Positions 8,071 through 44,753 of a DNA stretch of 44,753 bases are shown piece by piece; within the stretch, counting starts at the first letter, position 1, and every line of letters starts with the position of its first letter. The notes beneath the pieces were generated by a model. That model was not told where the DNA came from, made no database searches, and saw nothing but the letters and a program-made list of their open reading frames with translations. Location of the stretch: positions 1 through 44,753 of the IMG/VR virus record IMGVR_UViG_3300018412_000025; one strand, given 5' to 3'. The translations under genes were made by a program, and so were the position numbers. This DNA comes from a virus.

Positions 8071-11000
8071 CGTATAAATCTCCTCGGCTCGATGCCTGCT
8101 GTTCGTGCATCAACTGCAGAAACTGCCTGCGCACCTCCACCGCTATCTCCTGCGCATTCATCCCCGGCGTACCTTGTACATTGATATCCAACTGACCAAT
8201 GGCAATGCTTGGTGAAATGGATTGTACTGGCTGGCTGATTTTAGCAACGCTTGGAATTGTAGCTTGGTTATTAGCAGATACAGCAGGAGACTGATACGCG
8301 GCTACTGTCTCTTGGTAAGTTGGTGCCAATTGCACTGGTTCAGCGGCGACTGGCAATGCAATGGTGCTGGCAGCAAGCATCCCTGCAGCCGCAATGGCTT
8401 TAGGTGTACTTACTTTATTAGCCGCACTGGTTTGTGCTTCCGAAACTTGCGGTTTAACCGCCTCCAATCGTGCAACTGTCTCAGCTTGCTGAACTAAAGT
8501 GGGTTGACTGGCAGCGACTGGGTTTTGTGTCTGGTAAGAGTAAGCAGCAGCCGGTAACGCAATGGAGCTTGCAGCAAGCATACCAGCAGCTGTCATCGCC
8601 TTAGGTTTACTTACTTTTTTAACTGCAGCAGTTTGCTGAGCTATATTCGCTCCGCTACCCGAATATTTCTCTTCATCACCACCAAAGCCAAAAAACGATT
8701 TAACGCTATCAACCGCAGTGCCCAGCCAATCGAGCTTGCCCTTAATCCAGCTAAAAGCTGCGCCCCATCCTTTCATTAGCAGACCAATTGGTGACCATTC
8801 AAAAACAGTTTTAAGCGCATCCCAAAAAGAGAGCACACCATTTTGAATACCACCAAAAGCTGAACCAACAATACCTGCAACCCAGCTGATTAAGTTCGCT
8901 AAAAGGGTTATTCCTCCGATCACCAATCTGATTGGCAACAGAACGAGACTAAGCGCGCCGCCAATTAATCGACCGAACGATACGCCTGCACCTGCAGCAG
9001 ACTTTAATGACTCGGCGCTAGATTCAACAGGCTGAATTAACCGACCAAACCAATCGAAAACCGCCTTTACGCCGCCCCATACCCAGTTCAGCACCGCACC
9101 AATAGGTGCCAAGGCGGTAAATAATCCAGACAGCCCACTAATAATAGGTGAAAATCCTTGAAGAAATCCATCCCAAAAACCACCAAGGAAAGCCTTTAAC
9201 GGCTCAAAATATTTATAAATTAGCACGCCAAGAACGGCTATTAGTGCAACAACGGCAACCACTATCAATAAAATAGGATTAGCTAGCATTGCTGCGTTCA
9301 TCGCCCACTGTGCTGCTGTCACTAATCCCATACGGATAGCTGCTAATTTACTGATAGCACTAAATGCCACCATGCCGTAACGTGTTATTGCTATAATGCT
9401 GTTTAAACTAGCAAAGGCTAAAAGCAAAGGGCCGCCAGCCGCAGCCAGCACACCTATTGCTCCGGCAGTAATCGTTAATATTCTAACTAATCCAGGATGC
9501 GCTGCCGCCCACTTGTCAACATTTCGAGCAACATTTGTTAACCATATTGATACAGATTTAACCGTTGGCAATAGTGCATTGCCCAAGGTGATTTGTAGTG
9601 ATTCTACAGCAGATGAGAGTTCCTTTAACTTGCCCTTAGCATTGTCACCCATTTTATTAGCGACTTGTGCTGCGCGGCCTTGTGAATTTGTGACAACATC
9701 AAGGTACTTAGTAATGCCTTTCGCGCCCTCTTGGGATAGCAATTCAGCCATACCCGCAGCAGGCTCTTCGCCAAAAACGTCTTTTAATGCCTGTAATTTT
9801 TCTGCGCTACCCATACCATCGGTGGCTTCGGCCATATCGCCGATCACATCGATCATATTGCGCATATTGCCACTGGCATCTTGAGTTTCGACACCTAAAC
9901 TTTGTAACGTTTTAGCAGCCGCCGATGTTGGGGCAGCTAAACGAGTAACCATTGCTCGTAGCGTTGTACCTGCTTGTGAACTTTTAATACCAACATTGCC
10001 CAGTAAACCTGCCATAGCCGAGGTTTCTTCTAGACTCATGCCAGCCTGCCTTGCAATCGGCGCGACATATTTCATTGTCTCGCCGAGCATGCTCAAGTTG
10101 GTATTGGCAGTGGTAAAGGTGGCGGTTAATACATCCGACACTCTGTCCATCTGATCTGGATTTAAACCAAAACCAGATAAAATATCAGACGATATATCAG
10201 ATGCAGCGGCTAAATCAGTTGTACCTGCTTTTGCTAAATTCAACAGGCCCGGCATAGTGGCAATGATTTGGTTGGTTTTAAAACCTGCCATTGCCAGATA
10301 TTTCATACCATCGGCTGATTCAGAGGCACTATAAGATGTTTCTGCGCCCAATTTTCGAGACGTTGCGGTTAATTTTGCCAGATCAGATTCAGAGGCATTA
10401 GCAACTGCCCCAACACCCGCCATTTTCTCTTCAAACTCAGCGGCAACCCGCATCGGGCCGCCCAGCGCTCGCTGCATGGCTTGCCCCGTTTGTTGCAAGC
10501 CAAAACCAGCAACCGTCATATTTGCCGAAACCTGCATGCTTTTTTGCATGCGCTGTTTTGATTGGGCTATTTTTCCTTCAAGCTGGGCAATGCGTTCGAG
10601 CTTTTTAGCCTGCTTATCAAACGCCTGGTTTAATTCGTTAGTCTCTTGTTTAGCACTGGCTTGTGCACCTGATAGGTTTTTGGTCGATACACCTGCTTTA
10701 TTCAGTGCCTGACGCATCTGTTGGAGCTTTTGCGTCTCTTGCTGATGCGCCTGTTGAAGCTGATTAACCCGACTTTTGCCCTGTTCAAACTCCTTGGATA
10801 GTGATTTGTTATCCCTCTCCGCTTTTTTAAAGGCTTTACCGAGACGGTTAGCTTCTTTTTGTGCTTCTTTGAATTGATAGGTTAATAGGTCACTCGGCTG
10901 TTTTGACTGCTTCATCTCCTGCGCCAGTTCGGCAACCTGCTGCTCTGCAGCGCCTAAATCTTTTTTCAACGACTTAGCTGGAGCGGATGACTCTTTCATT

Positions 11001-13793: not shown

Positions 13794-14108
13794 TTATTCT
13801 GGCTTGACGGGCCAGGCAATGTCGTATGGATCAGTAAACATTTGCGGGACATCGCGTAATGATTGGCGGTAATCCTTATATTGCGCTTGTTTTTCCAGTG
13901 ATAATGGCGAGTCAATGGCTTGCGTGTGGTCAGCGGCAGCAACTAGCTCGTCACGTTTTTTACGAGCTGCGCTCCATTGCTGCTCATTCTCGTATTCTTT
14001 TTGTCTCAGGACAGACTCGATAGCGTCGCTATTCATGCCAAGGTTTAGCATGTATTCTCGGCTGGTGTCGGTGTGTCGCTTGCCTTGATTTATATATTCA
14101 AATCTCAC
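13794..14108 (-). CDS. Putative tail-fibre/tail assembly chaperone
   Basis: The 104-residue protein ends with YRQSLRDVPQ and IAWPVKPE, phrases seen in small phage tail assembly chaperones that sit next to variable fibre genes. The middle is helical and charged (VLRQKEYENEQQW). It overlaps the reverse transcriptase stop by 4 bp (ATGA), placing it in the DGR transcript. It could help fold the diversified fibre protein. Confidence 0.7.
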   Translation of the reverse strand: MRFEYINQGKRHTDTSREYMLNLGMNSDAIESVLRQKEYENEQQWSAARKKRDELVAAADHTQAIDSPLSLEKQAQYKDYRQSLRDVPQMFTDPYDIAWPVKPE

Positions 14109-15136
14109 TGCTTTCTCCTGAATGGCTCTTTAAAAAGAGCTTGTTTTAAATAATGTGCATCGGCATGACTGGCGTGACCAAGCCATGACTGGATATTTTG
14201 GTTAATATCAGAAAACTGAATCTCTCCGGCGGCATACTGCTTACGGTACTTTTTCAGTTTTGTTTTTATTCGTTTAACCGTGCACTTCCTTAATAGCCGG
14301 TGCGTTGAGTAGATTCTATAGCCTAGAAAATCCAAGGCGCGACCGTTCTTTTTGGCTATTGGAAACACCTGCGTTTTGCTGTTTGTTTTTAACCTTAATT
14401 GCTGATGCAAAAACAGCTCGATATCCCTTCGCCACTGGTGTAGCTGCGCCTTGTCATGATGGATAATTACAAAGTCATCCATGTAGCGAGCATAGTTTTT
14501 TGCTTTTAATTCGTGCTTGGCAAATCTATCTAGCTCATTAAGGTAGATATTGGCAAATATCTGACTGGTTAAATTACCAAGTGGGATCCCAACTCCAAGC
14601 GCGTCGCATGGGCTATTGTCGATAATATAAAACAGAATTTGCTTTGTATGGCTGCATCGTATCTTTGCGTCAATAATTGACTTTAGAATGTGGTGATCGA
14701 TACTTGAGAAGTAACGGCTAATATCAGCCTTGAGCGCAAAAGCTTTGCCATGCTTTCTTTCTACATCTCTGATAAAAGCTTGCGCCCTATCAGCCCCTTT
14801 GTGTGTACCCTTGCCTCGCCTGCACGCGTAAGAATCGTGAATGTATTGCTTGTCAAACAACTGCTCTATAATGTTGTATATCGCTCGATGCACCACCCTG
14901 TCTCTAAAGTGAGGTGCTGATATCAAACGACGTTTTGGTTCAAAAACATAAAAATGATGATAAGCCGACATTTGATACATGCCCCACATCAACTCATTTT
15001 GAATCTGAATTACGTTTTCTTCTAGGTTGTTGAAAAACGCGAGCGTGGAGCTTGCCTTGGTCTTTCCTTTTCTGCACTGGTATGCAGCGTCGAGAATATT
15101 TTCAAAGCTTATTATCTTATCAAAAGAGCAGCCCAT
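14105..15136 (-). CDS. DGR reverse transcriptase
   Basis: This enzyme copies the template-repeat RNA into cDNA with errors at adenines. Motifs in order: KADISRYFSSID, then IPLGNLTSQ (the LG...SQ signature of DGR enzymes instead of QG...SP), then the catalytic YMDD at residues 218-221, counted from the Met at 15136. That start gives 343 residues, normal for the family. The same frame is open further upstream to ATG 15376, which overlaps the avd stop, but that reading passes through the template repeat. I therefore prefer 15136 or a nearby start, although no clear ribosome site is seen. It lies downstream of avd and the template repeat, as in BPP-1. Confidence 0.93.
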   Translation of the reverse strand: MGCSFDKIISFENILDAAYQCRKGKTKASSTLAFFNNLEENVIQIQNELMWGMYQMSAYHHFYVFEPKRRLISAPHFRDRVVHRAIYNIIEQLFDKQYIHDSYACRRGKGTHKGADRAQAFIRDVERKHGKAFALKADISRYFSSIDHHILKSIIDAKIRCSHTKQILFYIIDNSPCDALGVGIPLGNLTSQIFANIYLNELDRFAKHELKAKNYARYMDDFVIIHHDKAQLHQWRRDIELFLHQQLRLKTNSKTQVFPIAKKNGRALDFLGYRIYSTHRLLRKCTVKRIKTKLKKYRKQYAAGEIQFSDINQNIQSWLGHASHADAHYLKQALFKEPFRRKQ

Positions 15137-15247
15137 CGACGCATCGATGGACTTGATTCGTGTTTCAGCAATTGCTGAGGTATCGGCATCCTTTTCAAAA
15201 TTGCACTGGCAGCACCCCGTGGGGTGATTGCTTCTGGCGTCATCAAG
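15137..15247 (-). ncRNA. Spacer region of the DGR template RNA
   Basis: The 111 bp between the template repeat and the preferred reverse transcriptase start matches the position of the BPP-1 Sp region, which primes cDNA synthesis with Avd. It contains a strong hairpin CACCCC/GGGGTG at 15213-15226. It is read in frame with the reverse transcriptase, but constraint as RNA is the better explanation. Confidence 0.6.
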
Positions 15248-15363
15248 AGCGGGACGAAAACCAATGTTACTGTTCGCATTCGAACGACCATTATTCAGAT
15301 TGAGCATGCCCAAGCCGGCGTTCGAGCCATTGTTCCAGTTGCCCCCGCGAAGCGGGAATCGGT
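15248..15363 (-). repeat. DGR template repeat (TR)
   Basis: This 116-bp segment aligns without gaps to 15804-15919 with 16 differences. In the coding sense 14 of these are at A in this copy (to G, C or T) and only two are at T. It carries many AAC/AAT codons where the target has other residues. AAY mutated to NNY can encode 15 amino acids and no stop codon. Confidence 0.96.
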
Positions 15364-15372
15364 CTCGCGTAA

Positions 15373-15729
15373 TCATAATGCCGATACCTGTTGTTTAGAT
15401 TTAACAGATTTGATCCAGCCGCCAATCATGCGCCCTATCTCAACAAGCATCTCGATCCACATTTGATATTTTTTAACATCTAAATAACGCAAGTCTTTCG
15501 CAAGCCTAACGCGACGTTTTAGTATTGCTAATTCAATATCAAGATCGGTTAATGTTGTCTTTTTGTGATAACGCTTAAATGCCGTAATAATCAACCGCTG
15601 CAACTGCAGCATTGATACGCGAATTTCAGCGCCCAACACATGCCTTTCGTGCCTTGGGAATTGTTTTATTGCTTGATACCCATATAACAACATATCGCGA
15701 CATCTATCTTCAATGATTAGAGCTGGCAA
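15373..15729 (-). CDS. avd: DGR accessory variability determinant (Avd)
   Basis: The 118-residue basic helical protein lies between the variable gene and the template repeat, as in BPP-1. The helices include LLYGYQAIKQFPRHERHVLG, a phrase typical of the four-helix-bundle Avd/S23-like family, and ILKRRVRLAKDLRYLDVKKY. Avd forms a pentamer that binds the template RNA and reverse transcriptase. Its last codons overlap an ATG that opens the frame through the template repeat. Confidence 0.93.
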   Translation of the reverse strand: MPALIIEDRCRDMLLYGYQAIKQFPRHERHVLGAEIRVSMLQLQRLIITAFKRYHKKTTLTDLDIELAILKRRVRLAKDLRYLDVKKYQMWIEMLVEIGRMIGGWIKSVKSKQQVSAL

Positions 15730-15754
15730 TCTATTTCCTATTTATTTTTTTAAA

Positions 15755-15770
15755 CTGCGCTACCGCGCAG
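15755..15770. other. Hairpin/cruciform downstream of the variable repeat
   Basis: CTGCGC/GCGCAG (6-bp perfect GC-rich stem, 4-base loop reading GGTA on the coding strand) lies 34 bp past the variable repeat. A hairpin with a 4-base loop at this position promotes target recognition in the BPP-1 DGR. No T-run follows on the coding strand, so it is not an intrinsic terminator. Confidence 0.7.
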
Positions 15771-15791
15771 AGAGCAAATATTCAAGTTACA

Positions 15792-17048
15792 TTACGCAAA
15801 GAAAGCGGGACGAAAACCAATGTAACTGCCCGCAATCGAACGACCATTCCCCAGATCGAGCACGCCCAAGCCGGCGCTCGAGCCATCGCCCCAGCGGCCC
15901 CCGCGACGCGGGAATCGGTTGCCATAGTTGCGCGCATAGATTGCACCGCCGACGGTTGTGGTTGATGCAGACTCAATGAGCAAGCGGCGGAGCAGTTCTG
16001 ACGGGGTGTAATTTGCGCCTTTGGTGATGGCTGCAAAATGGCTATTGGTCATGTACGGATAATCGTTGCTGTCATTATCAACAGGACCGTTTCTGTTTGT
16101 TACCGCATTATTTAAAATCGGTGAGCCAATGCTGCCGGCGCCGTCCTGACTGGCCGATGGCGAGTCAAAATAAGCCCCGTTTTTATGCCAGTTTACCTCT
16201 GCAATGCTCGGGTCATTATCCAGTGTCGTAATAATTTGACCGTCATCAAGCATCATTTGATCGATCCATTCGTAGACATTTCCGACTAAATCATGTATTC
16301 CCCATGCGCTGTGATCATGTGCCCAAGATGAAGGTCCCTTGCCTGTGTCTGTTCTGCCCGTGCCTGATGTTTCACCGGGCATGCCGTTATCACTGCGCCG
16401 AGCTGTTTCCAACTTGTTTTCATGGCTGCGGCCGTAGTTAGTGTTGCCGCGTGGAGTGGTGTCATTTGCTAATGACCACAGCGCAATTGCAGCCCACTCA
16501 TGTATAGACATCATGTGCCAGCCATCACCCTTTGTTGTGCAGAGTGCTTTAGCTGCATCGTAATTAACTGATGTGCGCGGTTGCACGCCGCCCACCACAC
16601 TGCAACCACCATTAGCTCCGGAAGACGCTAAATACTTAGCGATAAAAACTTCGCCGCGTGTCACACCGTTGCTAGCAAACATAGTTGGCGTGCCACTGCC
16701 GAGTTGCAGATCGACGCCTGTTTTTGCCAGTATAGCTGCATTCAAATCTTCGTAATTAAAGCGCGGAATGCGCACCATGATATTTGGATTGCCCTGGGCA
16801 TCGATTAATATTGTGTTGCGACCCCCGGATGCATCTTCGATAGCTTTTTTGTGGCCCTCGATAGCGTGTTCCGTCAGCTCGTCAACCTTCCCGTTGAAAT
16901 CAGCCTCGGCGCGACCTATTGCATCGTTTGCTTTTTTATCAAGCGCGCCCATCATTCCGCCGACTTCAGAAGTTTGCTGTTGACTAGCCGCGGTTTGCTC
17001 TTGTGTTGCTTGCTTAATAAGCTGTAGTTCTTCTAAAACGCTAGACAT
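15792..17048 (-). CDS. DGR target: tail-fibre protein with C-type-lectin/FGE-type fold
   Basis: The 418-residue protein is the presumed receptor-binding tip. I chose ATG 17048 because GGAGG precedes it; it overlaps the upstream fibre gene by 8 bp. Residues 1-80 are coiled coil, probably the attachment and trimerisation region. From about 115 onward it resembles the formylglycine-generating-enzyme/C-type-lectin fold, with WHMMSIHEWAAIALWS and GIHDLVGNVYEWIDQM. The last about 40 residues are the variable repeat and contain ten substituted residues relative to the template: R385, G387, D388, S391, V396, D398, G400, I405, G407, Y409. It ends GFRPAFFA, as usual for DGR lectin folds. Confidence 0.93.
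   Translation of the reverse strand: MSSVLEELQLIKQATQEQTAASQQQTSEVGGMMGALDKKANDAIGRAEADFNGKVDELTEHAIEGHKKAIEDASGGRNTILIDAQGNPNIMVRIPRFNYEDLNAAILAKTGVDLQLGSGTPTMFASNGVTRGEVFIAKYLASSGANGGCSVVGGVQPRTSVNYDAAKALCTTKGDGWHMMSIHEWAAIALWSLANDTTPRGNTNYGRSHENKLETARRSDNGMPGETSGTGRTDTGKGPSSWAHDHSAWGIHDLVGNVYEWIDQMMLDDGQIITTLDNDPSIAEVNWHKNGAYFDSPSASQDGAGSIGSPILNNAVTNRNGPVDNDSNDYPYMTNSHFAAITKGANYTPSELLRRLLIESASTTTVGGAIYARNYGNRFPRRGGRWGDGSSAGLGVLDLGNGRSIAGSYIGFRPAFFA
15804..15919 (-). repeat. DGR variable repeat (VR)
   Basis: The 116-bp 3' end of the target gene is homologous to the template repeat at 15248-15363. Its 3' part (coding sense, CATTGGTTTTCGTCCCGCT) is invariant between the copies and would hold the initiation-of-mutagenic-homing site. 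Differences cluster in the middle at template adenines. Confidence 0.96.
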
Positions 17049-17586
17049 TAACTGCCTCCAATTTGCGTAATCGTTCGCCCAGTTGCATTTGCGTATGAGC
17101 CTGTTTTGTTTGTACGACTTGGCTGCGGGTAAACGCAACCGCATCCATCATCATTTCAAGATCAATTATTAGGTTGAGGTTTTCGGTGCCAACAACCACT
17201 GTTACACTGTCTGCTGGCAAAGCCTCGACATTAATCGTCAGCCACTGCGCGACTTTAATTGCAGGGGTTCTATAACCTAAAGTCTTTCCTGCCAGAGAAT
17301 AAGCGCCGAGTAAGGTGCCGTCAGAGAGGAACACTCCAATCTCACGGATGGCATACTCTAAGTCACCATTAAATACGCCAGAAATGCGTAAGCTACTACC
17401 ATAATCTTGGTAGTCAGTAAGCTCTATACGTTCCATTTCACGAGAAAGTTTCGTTTGCGTTTTGCTGGGTGTGTAACTGCCATCCCCAAATGCTATATGA
17501 GTTATCTCGCCCTTTAATCCGTTTTCCTTTGCGGATAGCAGCTTGGCTAGTCCGGCTTCTGTAAATTGCAGCTTTAAACCTGCCAT
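17041..17586 (-). CDS. Tail-fibre N-terminal/collar protein (P2 gpH-like N-terminus)
   Basis: The 181-residue protein looks like the baseplate-attaching N-terminal domain of P2-type tail fibres, with the phrases ITHIAFGDGSYTP and EYAIREIGVFLSDGTLLGAYS. In P2 this is fused to a long fibre; here the frame ends and the diversified lectin protein follows as a separate gene. It presumably connects gpI/gpJ to that protein. Confidence 0.85.
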   Translation of the reverse strand: MAGLKLQFTEAGLAKLLSAKENGLKGEITHIAFGDGSYTPSKTQTKLSREMERIELTDYQDYGSSLRISGVFNGDLEYAIREIGVFLSDGTLLGAYSLAGKTLGYRTPAIKVAQWLTINVEALPADSVTVVVGTENLNLIIDLEMMMDAVAFTRSQVVQTKQAHTQMQLGERLRKLEAVNV

Positions 17587-34583: not shown

Positions 34584-34928
34584 TTAATCCTTATTGCTGC
34601 TAATTTGTTGTTGGTGTGCCTCGTTCCATAACCGCAATGAATCAGCACAACGAGGTTTATTGCATCGGTGCCACATTGATATTGCAGCTTGTAAATCTAA
34701 AAATGTGCCCACCAAATGAGAACAGTGAGCACAATAAAAAGTGAATGTTTCACATTGAGCGCCGACTTCTGACGCTGGTGCCGTTTGTTCTAAAATATCA
34801 GTACCAAACAGTCCCGTTTTATAATTAAGTTTTGCGTTACCACCACACCCTATACAAATACGAAGTGGTTTATGCTGCTGTAGCGTCTTGCCCACCCATT
34901 CGCGCCGTTCTTGTGCTGTAATAGACAT
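34584..34928 (-). CDS. Zinc-ribbon protein, possibly Lar-like
   Basis: The 114-residue protein has ICIGCGGNAKL, then FYCAHCSHLVG about 45 residues later, and DLQAAISMWHRC. That order (CxxCG, CxxC, then a helix with AI..W) is the layout of Lar-type restriction-alleviation proteins. The match is to layout only. A further CNKPRC pair follows. Confidence 0.5.
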   Translation of the reverse strand: MSITAQERREWVGKTLQQHKPLRICIGCGGNAKLNYKTGLFGTDILEQTAPASEVGAQCETFTFYCAHCSHLVGTFLDLQAAISMWHRCNKPRCADSLRLWNEAHQQQISSNKD

Positions 34929-35466
34929 GCTCTAATATCCTGTTTTCTTCATCACAAATAATTTCTTTTAACTGCTGCCAAAATGGAGACCAATCTCTGT
35001 GCCAGTTCTTCTCGTTTGTTACGAGTAATTCCTGAATTTTAATCGGTGTGTGGACTGACTTGCCCGTTTGCGAATAATGTTTCCACTCCTGCATAGCTAA
35101 AAAAACCATTGCCTGTAGCGTCTTTTTTTTCTTTACCCTGAATGGTTTTTCCTGCGATGCCTCAAACTTTGCCCATATTTCTTTTGCAACACATTCGATA
35201 TGACACCACTGCGGGTTATCACTATATAAAACCAAAGATAATGAATTGAGGTGAACGGGCAGCATGTTTAACGCCTTCGATATTTGAGAGTAATAAAACG
35301 CATCTGGTGGGAGTGGGCAGGTAGAACGTTTAAAGGTAACACTACAACCGTTTCCGCTTATACCTGTCTCAGCGGAGTCATCGTCGCGGCTTCTAGTTAA
35401 TAGATGAATATTCACTGCGGTAATGATTTCAACTCTAACTGCTTGTAATGTTATTGATTTTGTCAT
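34870..35466 (-). CDS. Hypothetical early protein (198 aa)
   Basis: From ATG 35466 the protein is 198 residues; a TTG two codons earlier is an alternative. It has a basic middle (RVKKKKTLQAMVFLAMQEWK) and a Trp-rich region (NWHRDWSPFWQQLKEI). Size resembles lambdoid Q antiterminators, and an antiterminator is expected from the late leaders, but no Q motif is visible. Two 13-mer control sites lie upstream. Confidence 0.5.
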   Translation of the reverse strand: MTKSITLQAVRVEIITAVNIHLLTRSRDDDSAETGISGNGCSVTFKRSTCPLPPDAFYYSQISKALNMLPVHLNSLSLVLYSDNPQWCHIECVAKEIWAKFEASQEKPFRVKKKKTLQAMVFLAMQEWKHYSQTGKSVHTPIKIQELLVTNEKNWHRDWSPFWQQLKEIICDEENRILEHVYYSTRTARMGGQDATAA

Positions 35467-35508
35467 TTGCAACCTACTCGTCCGTGTTTTATTTATCTTA
35501 ATGTGAGT

Positions 35509-35535: not shown

Positions 35536-36177
35536 TTATTTAATTTGATTGTTGTTTATTTTTAAGCTTTGAACAATTAACCCTGCACGAGTGGTGGTTA
35601 AATTAACCACCTTATGAATAGCAAGTAATTGACCTATACTGGCCTCAATAACATCAACTAATTCATTACTTAATTGTTTTAATTCTTGGGGATCGTCTTT
35701 TGCGTCATAAACACCGTCAGCGGCCGCAGATGCACCGGTAGTCATTACATCCGCAACTTCTCGCAATAACTGTCCAATGTATGCCTGTGCAACTGGGATT
35801 TGCAGTGATGACAAATCTGGAAGATCTAATGCGCCCATTAAATTTAGTATTTGCTTGCGTGCATCAGTTCCATACGGAGCCGGTAGTGCAGATAACCAGA
35901 CGTTAATCCATCGAGCTGGTACGTTAGTTGTATCGTTAAGCACATTGTTAATCTGACGAACTTTATTTGAATGCCATTTTTCATATTCAATTGCCGTCGT
36001 AAATTGTCCTGGCTGCTCTAATCCAAGTTTTATTAATACTGGTAATAATGATTCATGTACGAAATTGGCCTGACTAAAATTACTATTAGCAAGAAATTTC
36101 TTGGTTTGAATTCTTAATATTTTTTCAAATGAGTTAGCTGGTTCTGGCAATGCAGGAAATAAATCATCACTATTCAT
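35536..36177 (-). CDS. Hypothetical early regulator-like protein (213 aa)
   Basis: The 213-residue protein directly follows the Cro-like gene with an 8-bp overlap, the cII-like position. Phrases are FSQANFVHESLLPVLIKLGL and INVWLSALPAPYGTDARKQ. Helical with an acidic C-terminal part. I recognise no family; an early regulator is suggested by position only. Confidence 0.5.
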   Translation of the reverse strand: MNSDDLFPALPEPANSFEKILRIQTKKFLANSNFSQANFVHESLLPVLIKLGLEQPGQFTTAIEYEKWHSNKVRQINNVLNDTTNVPARWINVWLSALPAPYGTDARKQILNLMGALDLPDLSSLQIPVAQAYIGQLLREVADVMTTGASAAADGVYDAKDDPQELKQLSNELVDVIEASIGQLLAIHKVVNLTTTRAGLIVQSLKINNNQIK

Positions 36178-36427
36178 GACTATTTCCTTTCACATATCGA
36201 GACGGATACAAAATTTCCATTTCAGTTAATTTGCCCTTAAATATTCTAACAATAGCATTAACAATCTCTCTGCTAGGCCATACTTCACCACGCTCTAGTA
36301 AAGAAAAATAAGGAATTGAACGGATATGTCCTTGCTCTTTCATAGCCTCTGCCATATGACTTAAAGTTAGATTTGCATCGTTACGGATTCTACGTAAAGG
36401 CCAATTTCTAAAATTGTTAGTTGCCAT
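36170..36427 (-). CDS. Cro-like helix-turn-helix regulator
   Basis: The 85-residue XRE-type protein has LRRIRNDANLTLSHMAEAMK as the first helices and a recognition region near IPYFSLLERGEVWPS. It is divergent from the CI-like gene and opens the leftward early operon, the classic Cro position. The operator overlapping its -35 box is a likely autoregulatory target. Confidence 0.8.
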   Translation of the reverse strand: MATNNFRNWPLRRIRNDANLTLSHMAEAMKEQGHIRSIPYFSLLERGEVWPSREIVNAIVRIFKGKLTEMEILYPSRYVKGNSHE

Positions 36428-36446: not shown

Positions 36447-36475
36447 ATTATTTTTGATTAATAGTTATCTTACAA
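36447..36475 (-). promoter_or_regulatory. Early leftward promoter
   Basis: On the - strand TTGTAA (36475-36470), 17 bp, AATAAT (36452-36447). It drives the Cro-like gene and overlaps the dyad at 36467-36478. Confidence 0.65.
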
Positions 36476-36478
36476 GAT
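36467..36478. promoter_or_regulatory. Candidate CI/Cro operator
   Basis: ATCTTACAAGAT, a 12-bp dyad of the form ATCTTANNAGAT, overlaps the -35 box of the early promoter in the CI/Cro intergenic region. A second copy of the same form lies past the CI gene at 37177-37188. Confidence 0.6.
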
Positions 36479-36517
36479 TCTTTAGCCAAATTAAACTTTT
36501 TTGAGGATAATATAGGT

Positions 36518-37162
36518 ATGGAAATACAAAAAATATTAAGTAGCGCTCGATTAAAATCAGGCAAAACAATGCAATCTATAGAATCTTTGACAGGGGTTCT
36601 TGCAGCTAATCAATCAAAAATAGAACTTGGTAATAATAAAAACCCAGGTTTTAACACGGTTGCTAAGCTGGCTAAGTATTATCAGCTTGATTTAAATGAG
36701 GTTTACAAGGCTACACAAAACGAAAGCTCAGATGCACTTGTTTTTGCAGGAACAGAGCTGCCTACAAAAATACCGCTGCTGTCTATTAATGAGATAGAAA
36801 AGTGGATAAATGCTGATAGGTCGGTTGTTACAGAAGATACTGTTATTATTAGCTCTCCGGTTCCCTGCTCAAAACAATCTTACGCGATGATAGTTAGTGA
36901 TGACAGTATGACCTCATTTAGTGGAGCGGTTCATAGCTTCCCAATGGGATATACCATAATTGTTGATCCAGTCGTTACATACAAAAATAATTCTTTTGTT
37001 ATAGTAAAATTTAAGGAAGACGAAACAATATCATTTAGACAAGCTGTATTCATGGAAAGCAAAGTGTATTTCAAGTGTATAAACACTCAATATCAGATTT
37101 TAACCTCATCGCAAAAATATGAGATTTTAGGAGTTGTTGTTGGAACATACCGTAGGATTTAA
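36518..37162 (+). CDS. CI-like prophage repressor (HTH plus S24-like domain)
   Basis: The 214-residue protein has an XRE helix-turn-helix (residues 4-60) and an S24/LexA-like C-terminal domain. A possible cleavage site Ala77-Gly78 and the nucleophile Ser130 (SDDSMTS) are present. The catalytic lysine position, by eye aligned at ISFRQA, is Arg174, so RecA-stimulated self-cleavage may be lost. It should keep the lytic genes silent. A GAGG element and a -10-like GATAATAT lie just before the ATG. Confidence 0.85.
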   Translation: MEIQKILSSARLKSGKTMQSIESLTGVLAANQSKIELGNNKNPGFNTVAKLAKYYQLDLNEVYKATQNESSDALVFAGTELPTKIPLLSINEIEKWINADRSVVTEDTVIISSPVPCSKQSYAMIVSDDSMTSFSGAVHSFPMGYTIIVDPVVTYKNNSFVIVKFKEDETISFRQAVFMESKVYFKCINTQYQILTSSQKYEILGVVVGTYRRI

Positions 37163-37174
37163 CTAACTTCTTGT

Positions 37175-37190
37175 TTATCTTATTAGATAA
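37175..37190. promoter_or_regulatory. Second candidate CI operator
   Basis: TTATCT-TATT-AGATAA is a 16-bp dyad containing ATCTTATTAGAT, the same form as 36467-36478. It lies 13 bp past the CI stop. Confidence 0.5.
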
Positions 37191-37520: not shown

Positions 37521-37545
37521 TTAACATTTGTTTATTTGTACAAAT
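37496..37545. promoter_or_regulatory. Control-site cluster at the repA promoter region
   Basis: Variants of the 13-mer family (TTGTTTTAATGT, AACATTTGTTTATTTG) and the dyad AAATGT-N8-ACATTT lie within 70 bp of the repA start. Together with the parA site this places the family at both plasmid-maintenance operons. Confidence 0.65.
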
Positions 37546-37563
37546 AATATATTGAGAATCACC

Positions 37564-40500
37564 GTGTCTAAAAATTTATTTTATGAATTCTGGAAAGAAC
37601 AGTTTGGATCCGCTCAAGGTGTGATCGACTACTTTAACGATGACATTACTATTAATGCAGAAGCAATTGGTGTTAATTGGTCAGCGGTAAAAGATCAGCT
37701 TTCTTGGTTGTCTGGTAAAGACGGAAAATTCAATGCACAAGGCAGCAAGTACATCAACAAAGGGTTTAAGCACTCTGTTGGTGTTTATGCGTCAATCGAG
37801 AAAGATAAAAATGATGTGCAATTCCCGTTAATCACTTTTAAAAACAAAGGTGGTGCAGGTGACACGATAGTTGTTAATGGCCTGACGTATATTTGGGGCC
37901 TGTATAAAGAACTAAAAAACGGAAAAATACCACAGCAAAAGAGTGATGATTGGGCGCGACAAAAACGCGAACGGGATGAGCAAACCCAACGTAAGCGCCA
38001 AGCTGCCATCCTTGAACAGCAAGCAGAAAATAAAAGGAGGGCAGCAAACGTTGAAAAAGAATTAACAAACCACACTACACTGCCTCGCGCAGTTTCTTTC
38101 GTTTATACGGATAAGAAATTAATCCCGCAAATTTTGAAACGTTTTGATGCCCGAGTAGGGATAGATAAACACGGTTCTCACCTTTCTTTTTTACTGCAAA
38201 ATGTACACGGCAAGTCAGTTGGTGTTCAACGCATTTACGAAAACAAGATCACAATGGCCGATGGCCATAAAACCGATAAAACATTTACATGGGGCATGGA
38301 AAAAGACGGTGCTCATTTTATTATCGGTGACTTGACCACTGCAGATCGGATTTATTCAGCAGAAAGTTTTGGTACTGCTGCATCTATCTTTAGAGCAATG
38401 ACAGAGATATTAAAAATAAACGTAGCGGTAATCGTTGCAATGGATGCGGGAAATCTGGTTAAAGTTATTGCTGCATACAAAGCGCATAAACCTTGGCTAG
38501 ATATTATGCCATGTTGTGATAATGACATGTGGAAACAAAAGCAAGGCAAAGGAAACAAAGGGATGCAGGTTGCCCTTGAATTACTAGGAACGGATAAAGA
38601 CTTAAAAGTTTACGCACCCAACTTTGATAAAGTGGACCCTACTTATCAACCAACCGATTTTAATGATTTGCATGTAAGGGCGGGGTTAGCTGAAGTTGCT
38701 CGACAATTAAAGGGCAATATTGCCCGAGTAAAAAACCAAGGTGATTTGTTTGAAAAATCACTGATACAGTTAAATTATATTAATTGGGAATCGACTCAAA
38801 AAGAGGCAATGAAATGTGCCGTCACTGGCATGCAAATCGGCTTGCCGAAATATAGGCCAAGTGATGTCATTGCCTTAATTCTTGATACTGCGTTAAAAGC
38901 CGGTATCCCCCGCGAACGCCTCGACATACAAAAATTAAATAAAAAAGCGACACAGATTTTTCATGCGAAAGTGAAAGAAGCGCAATCATTCAGATCGTTT
39001 TCTACTCGTATCACTAACGATAAATTCAGACCTGAACATATTACCTATACAAAATTCAATAAATCGGTTATCGATGAGGAAGTGCTAAATTTCGCCACGA
39101 GCCGAGACGGGATTGTGATCATTCGTTTTCCAATGGCATCGGGTAAAACTCAAAATTTAATAAAACCAGTGATGAGGCAGGAAGAATATTCAGCCTTTTT
39201 CGCACACCGGGTTTCATTGATTGGTGGCGCATGGGATGCACTAAATGACAAATTACCATCACACATTGCACCGATAACTCACTATCAAGAAAAGCACATT
39301 CACGACATGCTAACGTGTTCTAACAAGCTCGCATGTTGTATTAATTCATGTTTAAAACCAGTGTTTCAGCCTGTTTTAAATCATTTGAATGCACTTTGTA
39401 TTGATGAAGCAGCGCAAACATTACGCCATATTACCGCTGGTAGTGCAATTCAATATCCGGTAGCTGTATTTAATAAGCTTTTGAGCATGATGGCTACCAC
39501 AAAAGACCAGGTCATTTTAGCAGATGCAGATGCCAGTGATACATTGGTTGAATTTGCAGAGCTTGCTTTAAAGCAACGCAATGCGCGGTTAGTTGAAGAG
39601 TTTGGCGAAAATGCACCAGTGCATAAAATTCATATTATTGATGGCCATACTCATTGTTCTGATTTTAATATCTATTATACAGATGGTGACACGGCGTTCT
39701 TAAAAGCGAAACAAGACGTTGGCGCAGGTTATAAAGTGTTGATTGCTAATGACTCGGCTAATGATTCAGAAAAATTATTTGAATCTATCAAAGCAAGTTA
39801 CCCGGACAAAAAAGGTTTGTTGATTTCATCTGATACCAAACCAGAAAAAGCGGTCGAGGTATTTAGTGATTCGCCAAATGCTATGAGTAAAAAATATGAT
39901 TACATTATTTATTCACCATCAATCAGCTCAGGTGTTTCCCTCGTAAACGGACACTTCCAAAAACATTACGGCATTTTCTGCGGAACAGTAGCACCGAGTG
40001 ATGCAGTACAAATGTTTCGACGTGACAGAAACGCACGAGATATTGTGCTTGGATTATCTACCATGCACAGCAGTCGTGAAGAAGATTCAATGGCTATGTG
40101 GTTGGGCATGATTCTCGCTAATGATAAACAGCTGGACATTAAAATTGATAATGAAACTGGTAAAATTGAGCTAGGTACCGATGACTTTCAATTTGACCGT
40201 TTCCGTCTTGATTTGATATCGCAAGAGAACAAAGCAAAAAATGATTTTGCGAACAATTTACTTTGTATTTTATATGGTGACGGTTACAACATTCACCAAC
40301 TGGACTCCACAGAACTTGATCAGGAAATTGGTAAATCAATTAAAGAGGCAGCTCGAGATCATATTAAAGCGATTGATAGGGGCCGTCACTTAACGCAAGC
40401 CACGCCGAATGAAGATGAAAAGAAAAAACTCGATAAAAAAATAAATCTAAACCGTGATGAGAAAGCACAGTTAAACAGATGGGACATTGAAAACTTACTG

Positions 40501-41316
40501 ATGATGGCTGTAAACGAGTCCAGCGTGGATTTTCATCATAAAGGCGGGCTAGGAAAGGTTAAGCTTTTTGAGTTGCTTAATATGAGTCCTGAAACTGCAA
40601 AAGAGTTTGACGACTTAGAAATAGCAAACGGGGTGCAACCATCTAAACGCATGTATCTAGTGAAACAACGCCAAGCATTACGCGACTTTTTTGAAATTGC
40701 TCGTTTTAATTGGGAAACAGGGCAAGGTACAGCAACCGAAGAAACAATAACGGCGGCTATCGAATATCTAACTGCAGGTGACAATATTCACTTGTTTAAT
40801 AACTGGTACCGTTTCGGCGGTTATATCAACCCATTCAGCAAACAGCTAAAACCTGTCAATAAAGCTAAAGCGATTTTAAGCGCATTAGGGCTGGAGATGG
40901 AAACTACGCAGCTTGGGCGCAATAACGACGACTCTGTGAAGCGTCAGCGCTATACAATCAACGCTGATACGTGGAACCTGATGTCTGGTATTAATACACT
41001 ACGAACAGCGAAAAAAACCAGCGCCTTTAAATTGATAATTCTGGATGGAGGGATGATCCATTCTTCTTCTGATAACTCTATAGTAGAAGAAAAAGAAATG
41101 GATCATGACAAATCCGCTATTAGCTTGGGTTCTATGGCTGATTTGATTGTTGAATCATTAAAAATTCCAGCGTCTTTGATTGATAAAATAGCAAATGGCC
41201 TTAAGTTTTTCGGAATTAAGAAAGCTGACCACCGAGAAATTGGGGCTTCGACTCTAAAAGAGGTGATTGAAGATCTTTATTCCGAAATAAAAATGGTCAA
41301 AACCGTCAATCGGTAA
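37564..41316 (+). CDS. repA: RepA-type replication protein (primase-helicase)
   Basis: This protein of 1250 residues starts and sustains replication of the linear plasmid. I prefer GTG 37564 (GAGAA upstream) over TTG 37528, which lies inside the control sites. A charged helical region near 115-160 precedes a TOPRIM-like part (VAVIVAMDAGN, then IMPCCDNDMW). The helicase part has a Walker-A-like FPMASGKTQNLI, LCIDEAAQTLRH and VILADADASD. N15 RepA (about 1300 residues) has the same order, and there the origin lies inside the gene. I cannot place the origin here. Confidence 0.92.
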   Translation: MSKNLFYEFWKEQFGSAQGVIDYFNDDITINAEAIGVNWSAVKDQLSWLSGKDGKFNAQGSKYINKGFKHSVGVYASIEKDKNDVQFPLITFKNKGGAGDTIVVNGLTYIWGLYKELKNGKIPQQKSDDWARQKRERDEQTQRKRQAAILEQQAENKRRAANVEKELTNHTTLPRAVSFVYTDKKLIPQILKRFDARVGIDKHGSHLSFLLQNVHGKSVGVQRIYENKITMADGHKTDKTFTWGMEKDGAHFIIGDLTTADRIYSAESFGTAASIFRAMTEILKINVAVIVAMDAGNLVKVIAAYKAHKPWLDIMPCCDNDMWKQKQGKGNKGMQVALELLGTDKDLKVYAPNFDKVDPTYQPTDFNDLHVRAGLAEVARQLKGNIARVKNQGDLFEKSLIQLNYINWESTQKEAMKCAVTGMQIGLPKYRPSDVIALILDTALKAGIPRERLDIQKLNKKATQIFHAKVKEAQSFRSFSTRITNDKFRPEHITYTKFNKSVIDEEVLNFATSRDGIVIIRFPMASGKTQNLIKPVMRQEEYSAFFAHRVSLIGGAWDALNDKLPSHIAPITHYQEKHIHDMLTCSNKLACCINSCLKPVFQPVLNHLNALCIDEAAQTLRHITAGSAIQYPVAVFNKLLSMMATTKDQVILADADASDTLVEFAELALKQRNARLVEEFGENAPVHKIHIIDGHTHCSDFNIYYTDGDTAFLKAKQDVGAGYKVLIANDSANDSEKLFESIKASYPDKKGLLISSDTKPEKAVEVFSDSPNAMSKKYDYIIYSPSISSGVSLVNGHFQKHYGIFCGTVAPSDAVQMFRRDRNARDIVLGLSTMHSSREEDSMAMWLGMILANDKQLDIKIDNETGKIELGTDDFQFDRFRLDLISQENKAKNDFANNLLCILYGDGYNIHQLDSTELDQEIGKSIKEAARDHIKAIDRGRHLTQATPNEDEKKKLDKKINLNRDEKAQLNRWDIENLLMMAVNESSVDFHHKGGLGKVKLFELLNMSPETAKEFDDLEIANGVQPSKRMYLVKQRQALRDFFEIARFNWETGQGTATEETITAAIEYLTAGDNIHLFNNWYRFGGYINPFSKQLKPVNKAKAILSALGLEMETTQLGRNNDDSVKRQRYTINADTWNLMSGINTLRTAKKTSAFKLIILDGGMIHSSSDNSIVEEKEMDHDKSAISLGSMADLIVESLKIPASLIDKIANGLKFFGIKKADHREIGASTLKEVIEDLYSEIKMVKTVNR

Positions 41317-41357: not shown

Positions 41358-41519
41358 TTAGTTGAGGCTTTTTGCTGCCCTCATTTTGAATATATCGGCT
41401 GTTTCATGTAATAAAAGCAATAGGTCATCCCTGTCTTTCTTTGATATTCTGACAACATTCTTTAATTTTGACATGGTATTCATTAACTCTTCTCTACATG
41501 CCATTTCTTGTTTGTTCAT
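41358..41519 (-). CDS. Small ORF (53 aa), candidate antirepressor/lysis trigger
   Basis: ATG 41519 has an excellent ribosome site (AGAGAGG, 4 bases before). The product begins MNKQEMACREELMNTMSKLK and is helical and charged, with a leucine run (DDLLLLLHETADIF). It is divergent from the XRE gene at 41711, with 191 bp between. In VP882, qtip lies divergent from vqmA and its product inactivates CI; related phages carry other regulator/small-protein pairs at this locus. By position this is the equivalent. No sequence similarity to Qtip is claimed. Confidence 0.65.
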   Translation of the reverse strand: MNKQEMACREELMNTMSKLKNVVRISKKDRDDLLLLLHETADIFKMRAAKSLN

Positions 41520-41710: not shown

Positions 41711-42034
41711 ATGACGAATAACCCGATAATCTTGGCACTAATTGCTCGCAGAAAAGCACAAGATATAAGCCAAACCCAAGCCGCTGATTTCGCGGGGTTG
41801 TCATTAAAAACGTATCAACGTATTGAAAATGGGACTGCAGATATTAGACTGAGAAATTATCAGGCTTTGATAAAAAAATTAAAATTGACTGATTTAGACA
41901 TTACATTAGACGCGTTAGGTTTTTCCGAAACGACGGCGTGGGATGTTGCAGCTGCCGCCAGATTATTACCACCGGAGGCACGTTCGGCCATGGTAAGTAT
42001 GATAATGATTATTTATAGGGATAAATTAGGATAA
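41711..42034 (+). CDS. XRE-family transcription factor
   Basis: The 107-residue protein has a helix-turn-helix at about residues 8-45 (QTQAADFAGLSLKTYQRIEN) and a helical C-terminal half (AWDVAAAARLLPPEARSAMV) probably for dimerisation or ligand sensing. AAGGA precedes the ATG. Its position between repA and the protelomerase, divergent from the small ORF, suggests that it activates that ORF in response to a signal. It overlaps the resolvase-like gene tail to tail by 22 bp. Confidence 0.8.
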   Translation: MTNNPIILALIARRKAQDISQTQAADFAGLSLKTYQRIENGTADIRLRNYQALIKKLKLTDLDITLDALGFSETTAWDVAAAARLLPPEARSAMVSMIMIIYRDKLG

Positions 42035-42381
42035 GACGAGATCAGTTTTTTTTCTATTTTAGCCATCGCGCTCACCAGTTCACAAAGTTTATCACTTTGA
42101 AACGAGTGGTTTATTTTCTCCTGAATAGTTTTTAACGCTACGTTTTCGCCATCGAATTGAGTCAGTAAATTTTGCAGTTCAGCCACACTATCAACCAGTT
42201 TGTCTAATCTCCAGATTATTAACGTATCACCAGGATGCAGATTTGGTAACAATTCCTTTCGTTGCGTGCGCTTGCCACAAGTGTCTGAGTAAATGTGATC
42301 ACATTGAGCTAACTTTAATGCCTTAATTTGCACTTTATCGTTAGTCTCATTATCAGAAAATGCATAACCGTATACGTTCAA
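42013..42381 (-). CDS. Truncated, catalytically degenerate serine-resolvase-domain protein
   Basis: The 122-residue protein fits the resolvase N-terminal fold: NVYGYAFSDNE, LKLAQCDHIYSDTCG, HPGDTLIIWRLDKLVDSVAEL and AMAKIEKKLIS. In active enzymes the first motif is GYARVST, and later LDRLGRS and FERxLIxER. Here the arginine before the serine is missing, the two motif arginines are Lys61 and Asp64, and the C-terminal DNA-binding domain is absent. It is probably not a recombinase; it may have been kept as a regulator or be a decaying remnant. Confidence 0.75.
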   Translation of the reverse strand: MNVYGYAFSDNETNDKVQIKALKLAQCDHIYSDTCGKRTQRKELLPNLHPGDTLIIWRLDKLVDSVAELQNLLTQFDGENVALKTIQEKINHSFQSDKLCELVSAMAKIEKKLISSYPNLSL

Positions 42382-42496: not shown

Positions 42497-44509
42497 TTAT
42501 TTGCTTATTTCTTTCTTACAGAGAGATTTGTAGTGAACTTTGAACTCTTTAATTGCAGAACGTTTATTGCCTTTTATCAGTATTTCAAAGTATGTTTCAT
42601 TTACAGTTGCCGAAACATGCCACATTTTATCCTTTTTCACTGCGTTAATTTCAATTTCGTTTGGTTCTGGCCATGGCAGTGTTTCCTTTTCTTTGATTTT
42701 TTCAGGTTGCTCCTGTTCAACTTGCTTTTCGTCTTTTTTGGCTTGCTCTTGCTCGGCCAGTAACTGCTCTGCTAATAATTCTTCAAGTTTTTCTTGGAAC
42801 TCGCTGAGTTCATCCTCTATCAGTTCTTGCTCTTGTTCTAGTTCCGTATCCTCTTCTTCTATTTCTTTAATTCTATTCTGGGCCTCTATTTTTTCATCAT
42901 CAAGATCAGTGCGTTCGTTAGAGATCTCTTCTGTTCTGCTTTCTATCTCTTCAATGCGCTCTTGCAGCTCAAGTATTTCACGCTCTTTTTTGTTTTTAGG
43001 CTTTTTAGGCTCATCTTTTGGCGGCTCAAATTTACTGATATTTATAACTGGGCCAACATAATTATATGTACTTTTAGGTCCAAAATCTTCGCCAAGATAG
43101 CCTTTAATAATGTTTAGATTGAGTTGTTTCCCGTCGAACAGACAGTGACGGCGGATGTATGATGATTTTATTTGTTCATGCAGCAATCCACCAGCAACTT
43201 CATTTTTTAGCCATTGATGTACCATTGCCATTTTGGGTGCGCGCAAGTAAGCGTTCATGGCATCATCGAACTGGCTCAAGTATTCAACAAGGGCTGCTTG
43301 TATTTTATCTGAGTCTTTATCGGTACTTTCTTCTTTCGGCTCAAATAATTTCACACTTGTAACATCGTTGTCTATTTTGAAAGAGTCATAGTGTAGTTGG
43401 GTTTCAAATAGTGAGTGGCCGAGTACTCTATGTCTGTATGCTGATCTAGATTCACCTGGTACTGCATGATCTTGATAAGTGACTTCAGTGTACAAGGCGC
43501 GGCAATCTTTTAAACTGAAATGTCCGCTTTGCATTAGTGAACGGACAGCAATATTAATTGTGCTTTCGTATCTGATGTGTATTGCCCTGTTGTGATAGTA
43601 GTCTTTAATATCGCCAGCTTTAACTGTACTCTCAGTTTTCTCACCAAGTACATTACGATAACTTAATACATCATCATCCGTTTTTTTTCTTAACAACTTC
43701 AAAGCTTTAATGACTGTTTCCGCTTTTATCATACAAGGTATTTTATAGGGTTTCATGTCCTCAAACAGATGTCTGTTTTTTGTTTTTAGCTGTCCGCTGA
43801 ATAATAGCGTTTCATCATCCACCGTTTTAAATTCTGCCGTTTTCATTATTTCTGTGAGTCGTCGGCCAGTAGATAATGCAATGCCGATACATAGATCACT
43901 TACTGTTGGGTTTTTACTTGTCAATAATCGCGTAGCTGTCTCTTTTACCCAATCAGGGTTTACCAATACCTGACTCTTTAGTTTTTTAGTAAGACTCTTA
44001 TTATCATCGTCACTTATCCAATCGCGGACTGCACCACGTGGCTCAAACATATAATAAGAGTGGTGCTCTATCTTTAAATTAAGCAAGTCTGATTTGTAAT
44101 CTGAACCTGTTACCGACTTTGCTCTGAGAAGTATTAAATTCTCTCGTAATTTCTCAATGGGCAATGATGTGTCGAGCATGCCAGAGAGCCCGTCAACACT
44201 GTCAGAATACTTACGTAGAAAGGCTTTAACGTGTGTATCAATCAAATGATGCTTGTAACCTAATGCTTTAATTGCATTACGATAATTTTCCATAAGCTTG
44301 CAAAAATATCGGTATGAAACTAATGGTTTCGATAATAATTCACCTGTTTTATTATCTGTTACAACACCTAATTTATTGCGTTGTGCTCTAGCCAAATTAT
44401 TACAACTATCTGTTACTCGTTTAGACCACCCTGATTTCTTTTCTCCTGCTGCCGCCTCTATATCAACAACTCTCTTAACTACGTCTGCAACTGATGTGAT
44501 ATTTGACAT
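42497..44509 (-). CDS. telN: Protelomerase (hairpin telomere resolvase, TelN/TelK family)
   Basis: It cuts the telomere palindrome and rejoins the strands as covalently closed hairpins. The tyrosine-recombinase core has Arg217 (TGRRLTE), Lys242 (GQLKTKN), a likely Arg337 (KDCRALY), His365 (VLGHSLF) and nucleophile Tyr374 (LHYDSF). The Arg-Lys and His-Tyr spacings (25 and 9) equal those in TelK. The N-terminal helical part spans residues 1-200. A DNA-binding stirrup-like region follows the core. Residues about 500-605 form a very acidic coiled coil, then a small C-terminal domain. At 670 residues it is longer than TelN (631). It lies next to its target. Confidence 0.95.
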   Translation of the reverse strand: MSNITSVADVVKRVVDIEAAAGEKKSGWSKRVTDSCNNLARAQRNKLGVVTDNKTGELLSKPLVSYRYFCKLMENYRNAIKALGYKHHLIDTHVKAFLRKYSDSVDGLSGMLDTSLPIEKLRENLILLRAKSVTGSDYKSDLLNLKIEHHSYYMFEPRGAVRDWISDDDNKSLTKKLKSQVLVNPDWVKETATRLLTSKNPTVSDLCIGIALSTGRRLTEIMKTAEFKTVDDETLLFSGQLKTKNRHLFEDMKPYKIPCMIKAETVIKALKLLRKKTDDDVLSYRNVLGEKTESTVKAGDIKDYYHNRAIHIRYESTINIAVRSLMQSGHFSLKDCRALYTEVTYQDHAVPGESRSAYRHRVLGHSLFETQLHYDSFKIDNDVTSVKLFEPKEESTDKDSDKIQAALVEYLSQFDDAMNAYLRAPKMAMVHQWLKNEVAGGLLHEQIKSSYIRRHCLFDGKQLNLNIIKGYLGEDFGPKSTYNYVGPVINISKFEPPKDEPKKPKNKKEREILELQERIEEIESRTEEISNERTDLDDEKIEAQNRIKEIEEEDTELEQEQELIEDELSEFQEKLEELLAEQLLAEQEQAKKDEKQVEQEQPEKIKEKETLPWPEPNEIEINAVKKDKMWHVSATVNETYFEILIKGNKRSAIKEFKVHYKSLCKKEISK

Positions 44510-44537
44510 AAAAACCCCTTAAAAATTAATAGTAAAT

Positions 44538-44692
44538 AAAGATACCTGTAACAATAGTATTTAAACATAAAAAAGTCAACAACACCCGCAACAATAATAT
44601 TTAAAGATACCCGCCGCCTACCGCCCAAAGATACCCGCCACCCATCAATAAAGATACCTGCCTCCTATACCATAAAGATACCTGTGAATTAC
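44538..44692. repeat. Right hairpin telomere arm with iterons
   Basis: AAAGATACC occurs at 44538, 44603, 44627, 44650 and 44674; the last four are 23-24 bp apart and end 10, 34, 57 and 81 bases from the tip, the same distances as on the left arm. The tip GAATTAC|GTAATTC is at 44692/44693. Confidence 0.9.
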
Positions 44693-44753
44693 GTAATTCA
44701 CAGGTATCTTTATGGTATAGGAGGCAGGTATCTTTATTGATGGGTGGCGGGTA
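44632..44753. other. Perfect 122-bp telomere palindrome (hairpin read-through)
   Basis: Bases 44693-44753 are the exact reverse complement of 44632-44692. They match the right arm, not the diverged left arm, so they represent reading around the right hairpin or a right-right replication junction. The unit-length genome would be 44,692 bp. Confidence 0.92.

Follow-up and report, generated by a model that had tools for sequence, protein, structure and literature searches.

Telomere-phage repressors that cannot be cleaved are already known from N15. The N15 repressor is non-proteolytic by experiment (PMC10432266), and in phiKO2 neither a cleavage site nor the active residues were found in the sequence (PMC4997575). 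On the TelN tree, repressors of linear plasmid phages that are predicted to be cleavable cluster separately from those predicted to be non-cleavable. The same phages carry pairs of a transcription factor and a small open reading frame (TF-smORF) that activate lysis independently of SOS, the smORF product inactivating cI without cutting it; the pairs that Silpe et al. characterized all come from phages whose cI is cleavable (PMC10432266). Examples are TF72-smORF72 of phage 72 (Vibrio 1F-97) and VqmA-Qtip of VP882, where a TF gene and a counter-oriented smORF lie between convergent repA and telN. SmORF72 and Qtip are small antirepressors that inactivate cI without proteolysis, and cI of both phages is also self-cleaving. 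A general scheme in which an uncut repressor is inactivated by a binding antirepressor is described for Gifsy (GfoR/GfoA) and 186 (CI/Tum) (PMC3121763). There the antirepressor is LexA-controlled, the Gifsy repressors have no S24 domain and 186 CI has the fold only.

We analyzed IMG/VR record IMGVR_UViG_3300018412_000025, a single metagenomic sequence of 44,753 bases that we refer to in full as the window. Its cI-type repressor resembles the CB repressors of N15 and phiKO2 in belonging to a telomere phage, in gene position and in being predicted to be non-proteolytic. The CB repressors, however, have lost the catalytic serine as well as the lysine and belong to another clade (N15/PY54; 96/94), and N15 is under a separate immA antirepressor locus, whereas the window repressor keeps its serine. 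What is different here is this Ser-Arg state, its origin inside a clade of intact repressors, a parallel case in phiHAP-1-like phages and the pairing with a TF-smORF layout.

Genome organization and the repressor gene

The window is a telomere phage (linear phage-plasmid) with a protelomerase, RepA, a partition ATPase and a telomere palindrome. The left part of the gene order runs from ParA at the left end through contractile-tail structural genes to antitermination protein Q (34870–35472, minus strand), a CII-like activator (35536–36177, minus strand; phrog_4834, 2.2e-44), an 85-residue Cro-like HTH protein (36170–36427, minus strand) and the divergent cI gene; Q and Cro were assigned by family and profile matches. 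Behind cI follow RepA (37528–41316, plus strand; phrog_4913, 4e-302), a small ORF, an XRE regulator, a short resolvase N-terminal-domain protein (42013–42381, minus strand) and the protelomerase TelN (42497–44509, minus strand; PF16684, 1.1e-31). The record ends in a perfect 122-bp palindrome (44632–44753), which fits a telomere hairpin read through. Judging from the N terminus in relatives, the true start of RepA is probably a GTG at about 37564.

Both record ends (1–140 and 44528–44753) also carry iteron-like repeats with a period of about 47 bp around GGTATCTTT, and in these regions the record start aligns with the reverse complement of the record end. A diversity-generating retroelement occupies 14105–17144. 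Its template repeat lies within the 5' end of the reverse transcriptase ORF (PF00078) and its variable repeat lies at the end of a tail-fibre-like protein (15792–17144), the template having A at 14 of the 16 differences.

The cI gene (36518–37162, plus strand; P0001, phrog_4, 3.6e-21) is full length and encodes 214 amino acids, comprising an HTH domain (residues 1–66) and a degenerate S24/LexA-like C-terminal domain (residues 84–214) whose match to Peptidase_S24 (PF00717) scores 34.2 bits, above the curated cut-off of 23.3. The AlphaFold model has a mean pLDDT of 86 and matches the fold of lambda CI structures with Z of 14.8–17.5; residues 117–214 superimpose on residues 136–232 of the lambda CI chain 1f39 at 1.3 Å over 97 residues. 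Sequence patterns point to putative operators on either side of the gene. One, TATCTTACAAGATT (36466–36479), lies in the cro-cI gap and overlaps a -35-like hexamer of the cro-side promoter, and the other, TATCTTATTAGATA (37176–37189), stands just after cI and before repA. The relative L061, introduced below, has an operator-like TTATCTTACAAGGG resembling TATCTTATTAGATA in the corresponding position after cI. The pattern was derived from these same sites, so they suggest operators only weakly.

Active-site residues and cleavage loop of the repressor

The preliminary description of this DNA had placed the catalytic serine at Ser130 and had read Arg174 as the replacement of the catalytic lysine, and both assignments are right. 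By sequence, profile and structural alignment Ser130 (36905–36907, plus strand) corresponds to the lambda nucleophile S149 and Arg174 (AGA, 37037–37039, plus strand) to lambda K192; aligned with 1f39, the model pairs residue 130 with 149 and 174 with 192. In pairwise alignments Arg174 lies opposite K192 of 2ho0/1kca, and in 2hnf, a lambda K192A mutant, it pairs with the mutated residue itself. It also occupies the lysine column of a 15-sequence alignment that includes P22 C2, lambda CI, LexA and telomere-phage repressors. A self-cleaving repressor needs both residues of this dyad, and here the serine is present and the lysine is replaced. The possibility had been left that Lys164 or Lys166 fills the lysine position. 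The alignment places neither of them there and puts Lys164 at the conserved Arg of the ARL/ARI strand, so that they were rejected as the general base.

A third active-site change had escaped the preliminary description. The conserved Gly of the GxSM motif (lambda G147), two residues before Ser130, is Asp128 in sequence alignments (36899–36901, plus strand). In lambda CI and LexA, ind- mutations are known at the scissile Ala-Gly as well as at the GxSM glycine, and 1jhf, a deposited LexA G85D structure among our structural matches, is one such mutant. Asp128 and Arg174 may pair and thereby stabilize a dead active site.

The cleavage site itself had been sought in the wrong place. Ala77-Gly78 (36746–36751, plus strand) lies in a disordered linker (residues 69–79, pLDDT below 50) and is not homologous to the site in lambda, P22 or LexA. 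It precedes Ser130 by 52 residues, against 37 from G112 to S149 in lambda, and is ruled out by alignment and structure model together. The cleavage loop aligns elsewhere: the SWVQAGxW/SWVSAGQW segment (SWVSAGQW in P22, SWVQAGLW in VP882) stands opposite SINEIEKW, residues 89–96, of the window repressor. The equivalent of the scissile Ala-Gly (lambda A111-G112) is therefore Ile93-Glu94 (ATA GAA, 36794–36799, plus strand), where a self-cleaving repressor has Ala-Gly or a similar pair, and a structural alignment to 8gmu (residues 83–213 to 101–231) likewise puts Ile93-Glu94 at this point. We also considered that the loop had turned into a helix, as the model has a helix at 90–98, yet the intact L061 control, modeled with the same alignment rows, shows a short helix at 90–94 as well and the claim was dropped.

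Taken from these residues, SOS self-cleavage has likely been lost in the window repressor. The preliminary description had concluded from the arginine that self-cleavage would be hindered. That conclusion is supported, and the case for it is stronger than originally put because not only the Lys but also the Ala-Gly and the Gly two positions before Ser130 have been lost; that the Arg alone is decisive is not established. With three cleavage elements gone, RecA is therefore unlikely to open the switch.

Relatives and origin of the change

Used directly as query against viral and genome contigs, the repressor gave no matches, and the nearest relatives were found via the protelomerase. The closest repressors belong to L061 (IMG/VR 3300022221_000034) and L062 (IMG/VR 3300040808_002861) and are 41% and 38% identical to the window cI. 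Both elements share the window's clade, its gene order and related smORF and XRE genes, and L061 shares the resolvase gene too, but their repressors have an intact A-G, GDSM and TFKQL. With the trait columns left out of the alignment, the repressor tree has the window sequence as sister to these two (99/86) on a long branch (1.12), and together with L065 and L031 they form a clade of five (100/97). The repressors of L061, L062 and L065, 36–41% identical to the window cI, keep A-G, G, S and K; that of L031 has lost A-G (its site reads LN) and keeps the G and the Ser/Lys dyad. Because the nearest relatives keep these residues, the sequences indicate that the loss is derived and took place within a telomere-phage clade of mostly intact repressors.

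The phiHAP-1 repressor ORF37 (YP_001686773) and its relatives show the same set of changes: A-G is lost, Gly has become Asp, Ser is kept and Lys has become Arg. Unlike the window, they group in a clade of their own (100/99) adjacent to the intact VP882, and the supported branches of the tree force two independent origins of the Ser-Arg state. A count of residue combinations over 121 distinct repressors agrees. Those with A-G also have G, S and K, save the disrupted VHML sequence and three in which, on inspection by eye, the lysine column is off by one position, and those with S that lack A-G have Asp and Arg, except L031 and the misaligned L027. A search that used the A-G motif as part of its seed contributed 74 of the 121, many of the intact rows among them; the telomere-phage rows are therefore the main basis of the association, and the tree outweighs the counts.

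Several records among these relatives stand apart. As deposited, the VHML repressor (L003:6454–7296) is garbled at the serine and lysine motifs yet elsewhere agrees with VP58.5; the record seems to contain frameshifts or sequencing errors. In the TelN relative L063 (54% identical) a 154-residue protein upstream of repA (8460–8924) has no Pfam match, matches the repressor profile weakly and apparently occupies the place of an S24 repressor. In a Hamiltonella defensa chromosome contig, host genes adjoin a protelomerase fragment (L059:9992–11431) that shares 58% identity with the window enzyme and is a remnant of a related phage-plasmid.

Divergence has been faster in the C-terminal domain of the window repressor than in its HTH. 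Compared with L061, the two domains are 36% and 56% identical, against 52% and 58% between the intact repressors of L061 and L065. This is the pattern expected if constraint on the peptidase domain were relaxed while DNA binding was kept. Identity between the window and L061 is also lower for cI as a whole (41%) than for Cro (46%), CII (50%), TelN (61%) and RepA (63%); cI of L061 and L062 is 80% identical, above most neighboring genes.

The small ORF and the control of induction

Near repA lies a smORF of 53 amino acids (41358–41519, minus strand), a candidate antirepressor with the ribosome-binding site GAGAGG 4 nt before its ATG. Divergent from it is an XRE-family regulator of 107 amino acids (41711–42034, plus strand), a candidate TF that is 73% identical to the L061 protein; the resolvase-domain gene beside it is a neighbor conserved in L061 and L031. 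Between the convergent repA and telN genes, in other words, the window has an HTH regulator and a small ORF of opposite orientation. Members of the smORF family occur in the corresponding position of four relatives, L061, L062 (two copies), L065 (two copies) and L031, each beside an XRE gene, and share a conserved LLHEAADLLxM end. A phage search with the L061 smORF as query gave no matches. The window smORF has no detectable similarity to Qtip, and as shuffled controls reach higher scores it was rejected as a Qtip relative; its likeness to smORF72 and Qtip is one of layout. The early suggestion that the prophage depends on an antirepressor such as this small ORF is therefore plausible, in that the ORF is conserved, diverges from an XRE gene and sits where proven smORFs sit.

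Related modules were seen elsewhere among the TelN relatives. In L064 (2013–3042) the region between telN and repA holds a PAS-GerE, VqmA-like regulator and, divergent from it, a Qtip relative (41% identical). For phiHAP-1-like phages no TF-smORF module was reported (PMC12802170). Despite that report, a conserved ORF of 90–95 amino acids is found in these phages at the qtip position, antisense to the 3' end of telN (L008:10338–10625, L028, L029, L032, L024, L023 and L025). Its hhalign match to Qtip is weak (P 0.0045; probability 7.7, where 60 column shuffles gave 0.4 at most), and the ORF may represent a diverged Qtip that has no VqmA beside it.

The reading we favor, with a probability of about 0.62, is that of an SOS-blind repressor inactivated by the smORF. 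The repressor would retain operator binding and an S24-fold C-terminal domain while RecA-stimulated self-cleavage would have been lost through the changes from Ala-Gly to Ile-Glu, from Gly to Asp and from the general-base Lys to Arg, so that DNA damage probably does not directly open the switch. Induction would probably come from the XRE gene and the smORF that diverge from each other between repA and telN, acting as a TF-smORF pair. On a cue that it senses or relays, the XRE protein would switch on the 53-residue smORF, which in turn would bind cI and inactivate it uncut, freeing cro/cII/Q and repA. This makes the scheme comparable to Gifsy and 186. The intact L061, L062 and L065 would have the smORF route in addition to SOS, and the window would have no other.

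A non-cleavable repressor could also be induced by some other antirepressor, or by an unrecognized LexA-controlled gene in the manner of Gifsy GfoA, 186 Tum or N15 AntC. Such arrangements are well documented (PMC3121763) and many ORFs of the window have no family, but among the window proteins scanned we found no known antirepressor family or domain, and the window has no second S24 protein. LexA-like boxes are not above chance there (10 sites when one mismatch is allowed, 13 being expected), for which reason a LexA-controlled antirepressor was rejected as a candidate. A longer LexA pattern had no match in the window, and the sole exact CTGT-N8-ACAG, at 16069, falls within the tail-fibre-like gene (15792–17144). 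We regard this alternative as unlikely.

Less likely again is slow residual self-cleavage of the Ser-Arg protein, with Arg as a poor base and Ile93-Glu94 or some other bond as the target, which would make a weakly SOS-responsive or high-threshold prophage. Two points count here against the SOS-blind reading: Ser130 is retained, in both independent Ser-Arg lineages, though a fully dead site need not keep its serine, and at high pH LexA K156R retains part of its activity, Arg assisting slowly. A V. campbellii prophage called phiHAP-1-like, whose repressor need not be of the Ser-Arg kind, was released after mitomycin C, but its DNA was enriched without mitomycin too (PMC4877103). Slow cleavage is made less likely by the additional loss of the scissile Ala-Gly and of the Gly next to the serine.

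That the repressor gene is decaying in an element no longer functional as a prophage is highly improbable. The long branch and the fast C-terminal domain would fit decay, but the frame is fully open, the HTH is conserved, operator-like sites lie on either side of cI, structural, replication and telomere genes are present and the C-terminal domain is predicted to be well folded. A sequencing or assembly error, AGA being one transition from AAA, has next to no chance of being the explanation and is insufficient because several other active-site changes co-occur in one open frame, the same set recurring in a second lineage.

The two Ser-Arg lineages also allow a broader and more tentative view, which we hold at somewhat less than even odds. 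Telomere-phage repressors may have moved repeatedly from SOS cleavage to antirepressor-only control through one end state, in which A-G is lost, GxSM becomes DxSM, Ser is kept and Lys becomes Arg, leaving an SOS-blind prophage with the small-protein module, formerly a second input, as its only switch. Because the phiHAP-1-like phages changed in parallel, the Ser-Arg state could be used as a sequence marker for candidate SOS-blind repressors. The window presents a TF-smORF layout beside a predicted non-cleavable repressor whose nearest relatives are intact, and together with L061 and L062 it offers a natural comparison for the effects of losing the SOS input.
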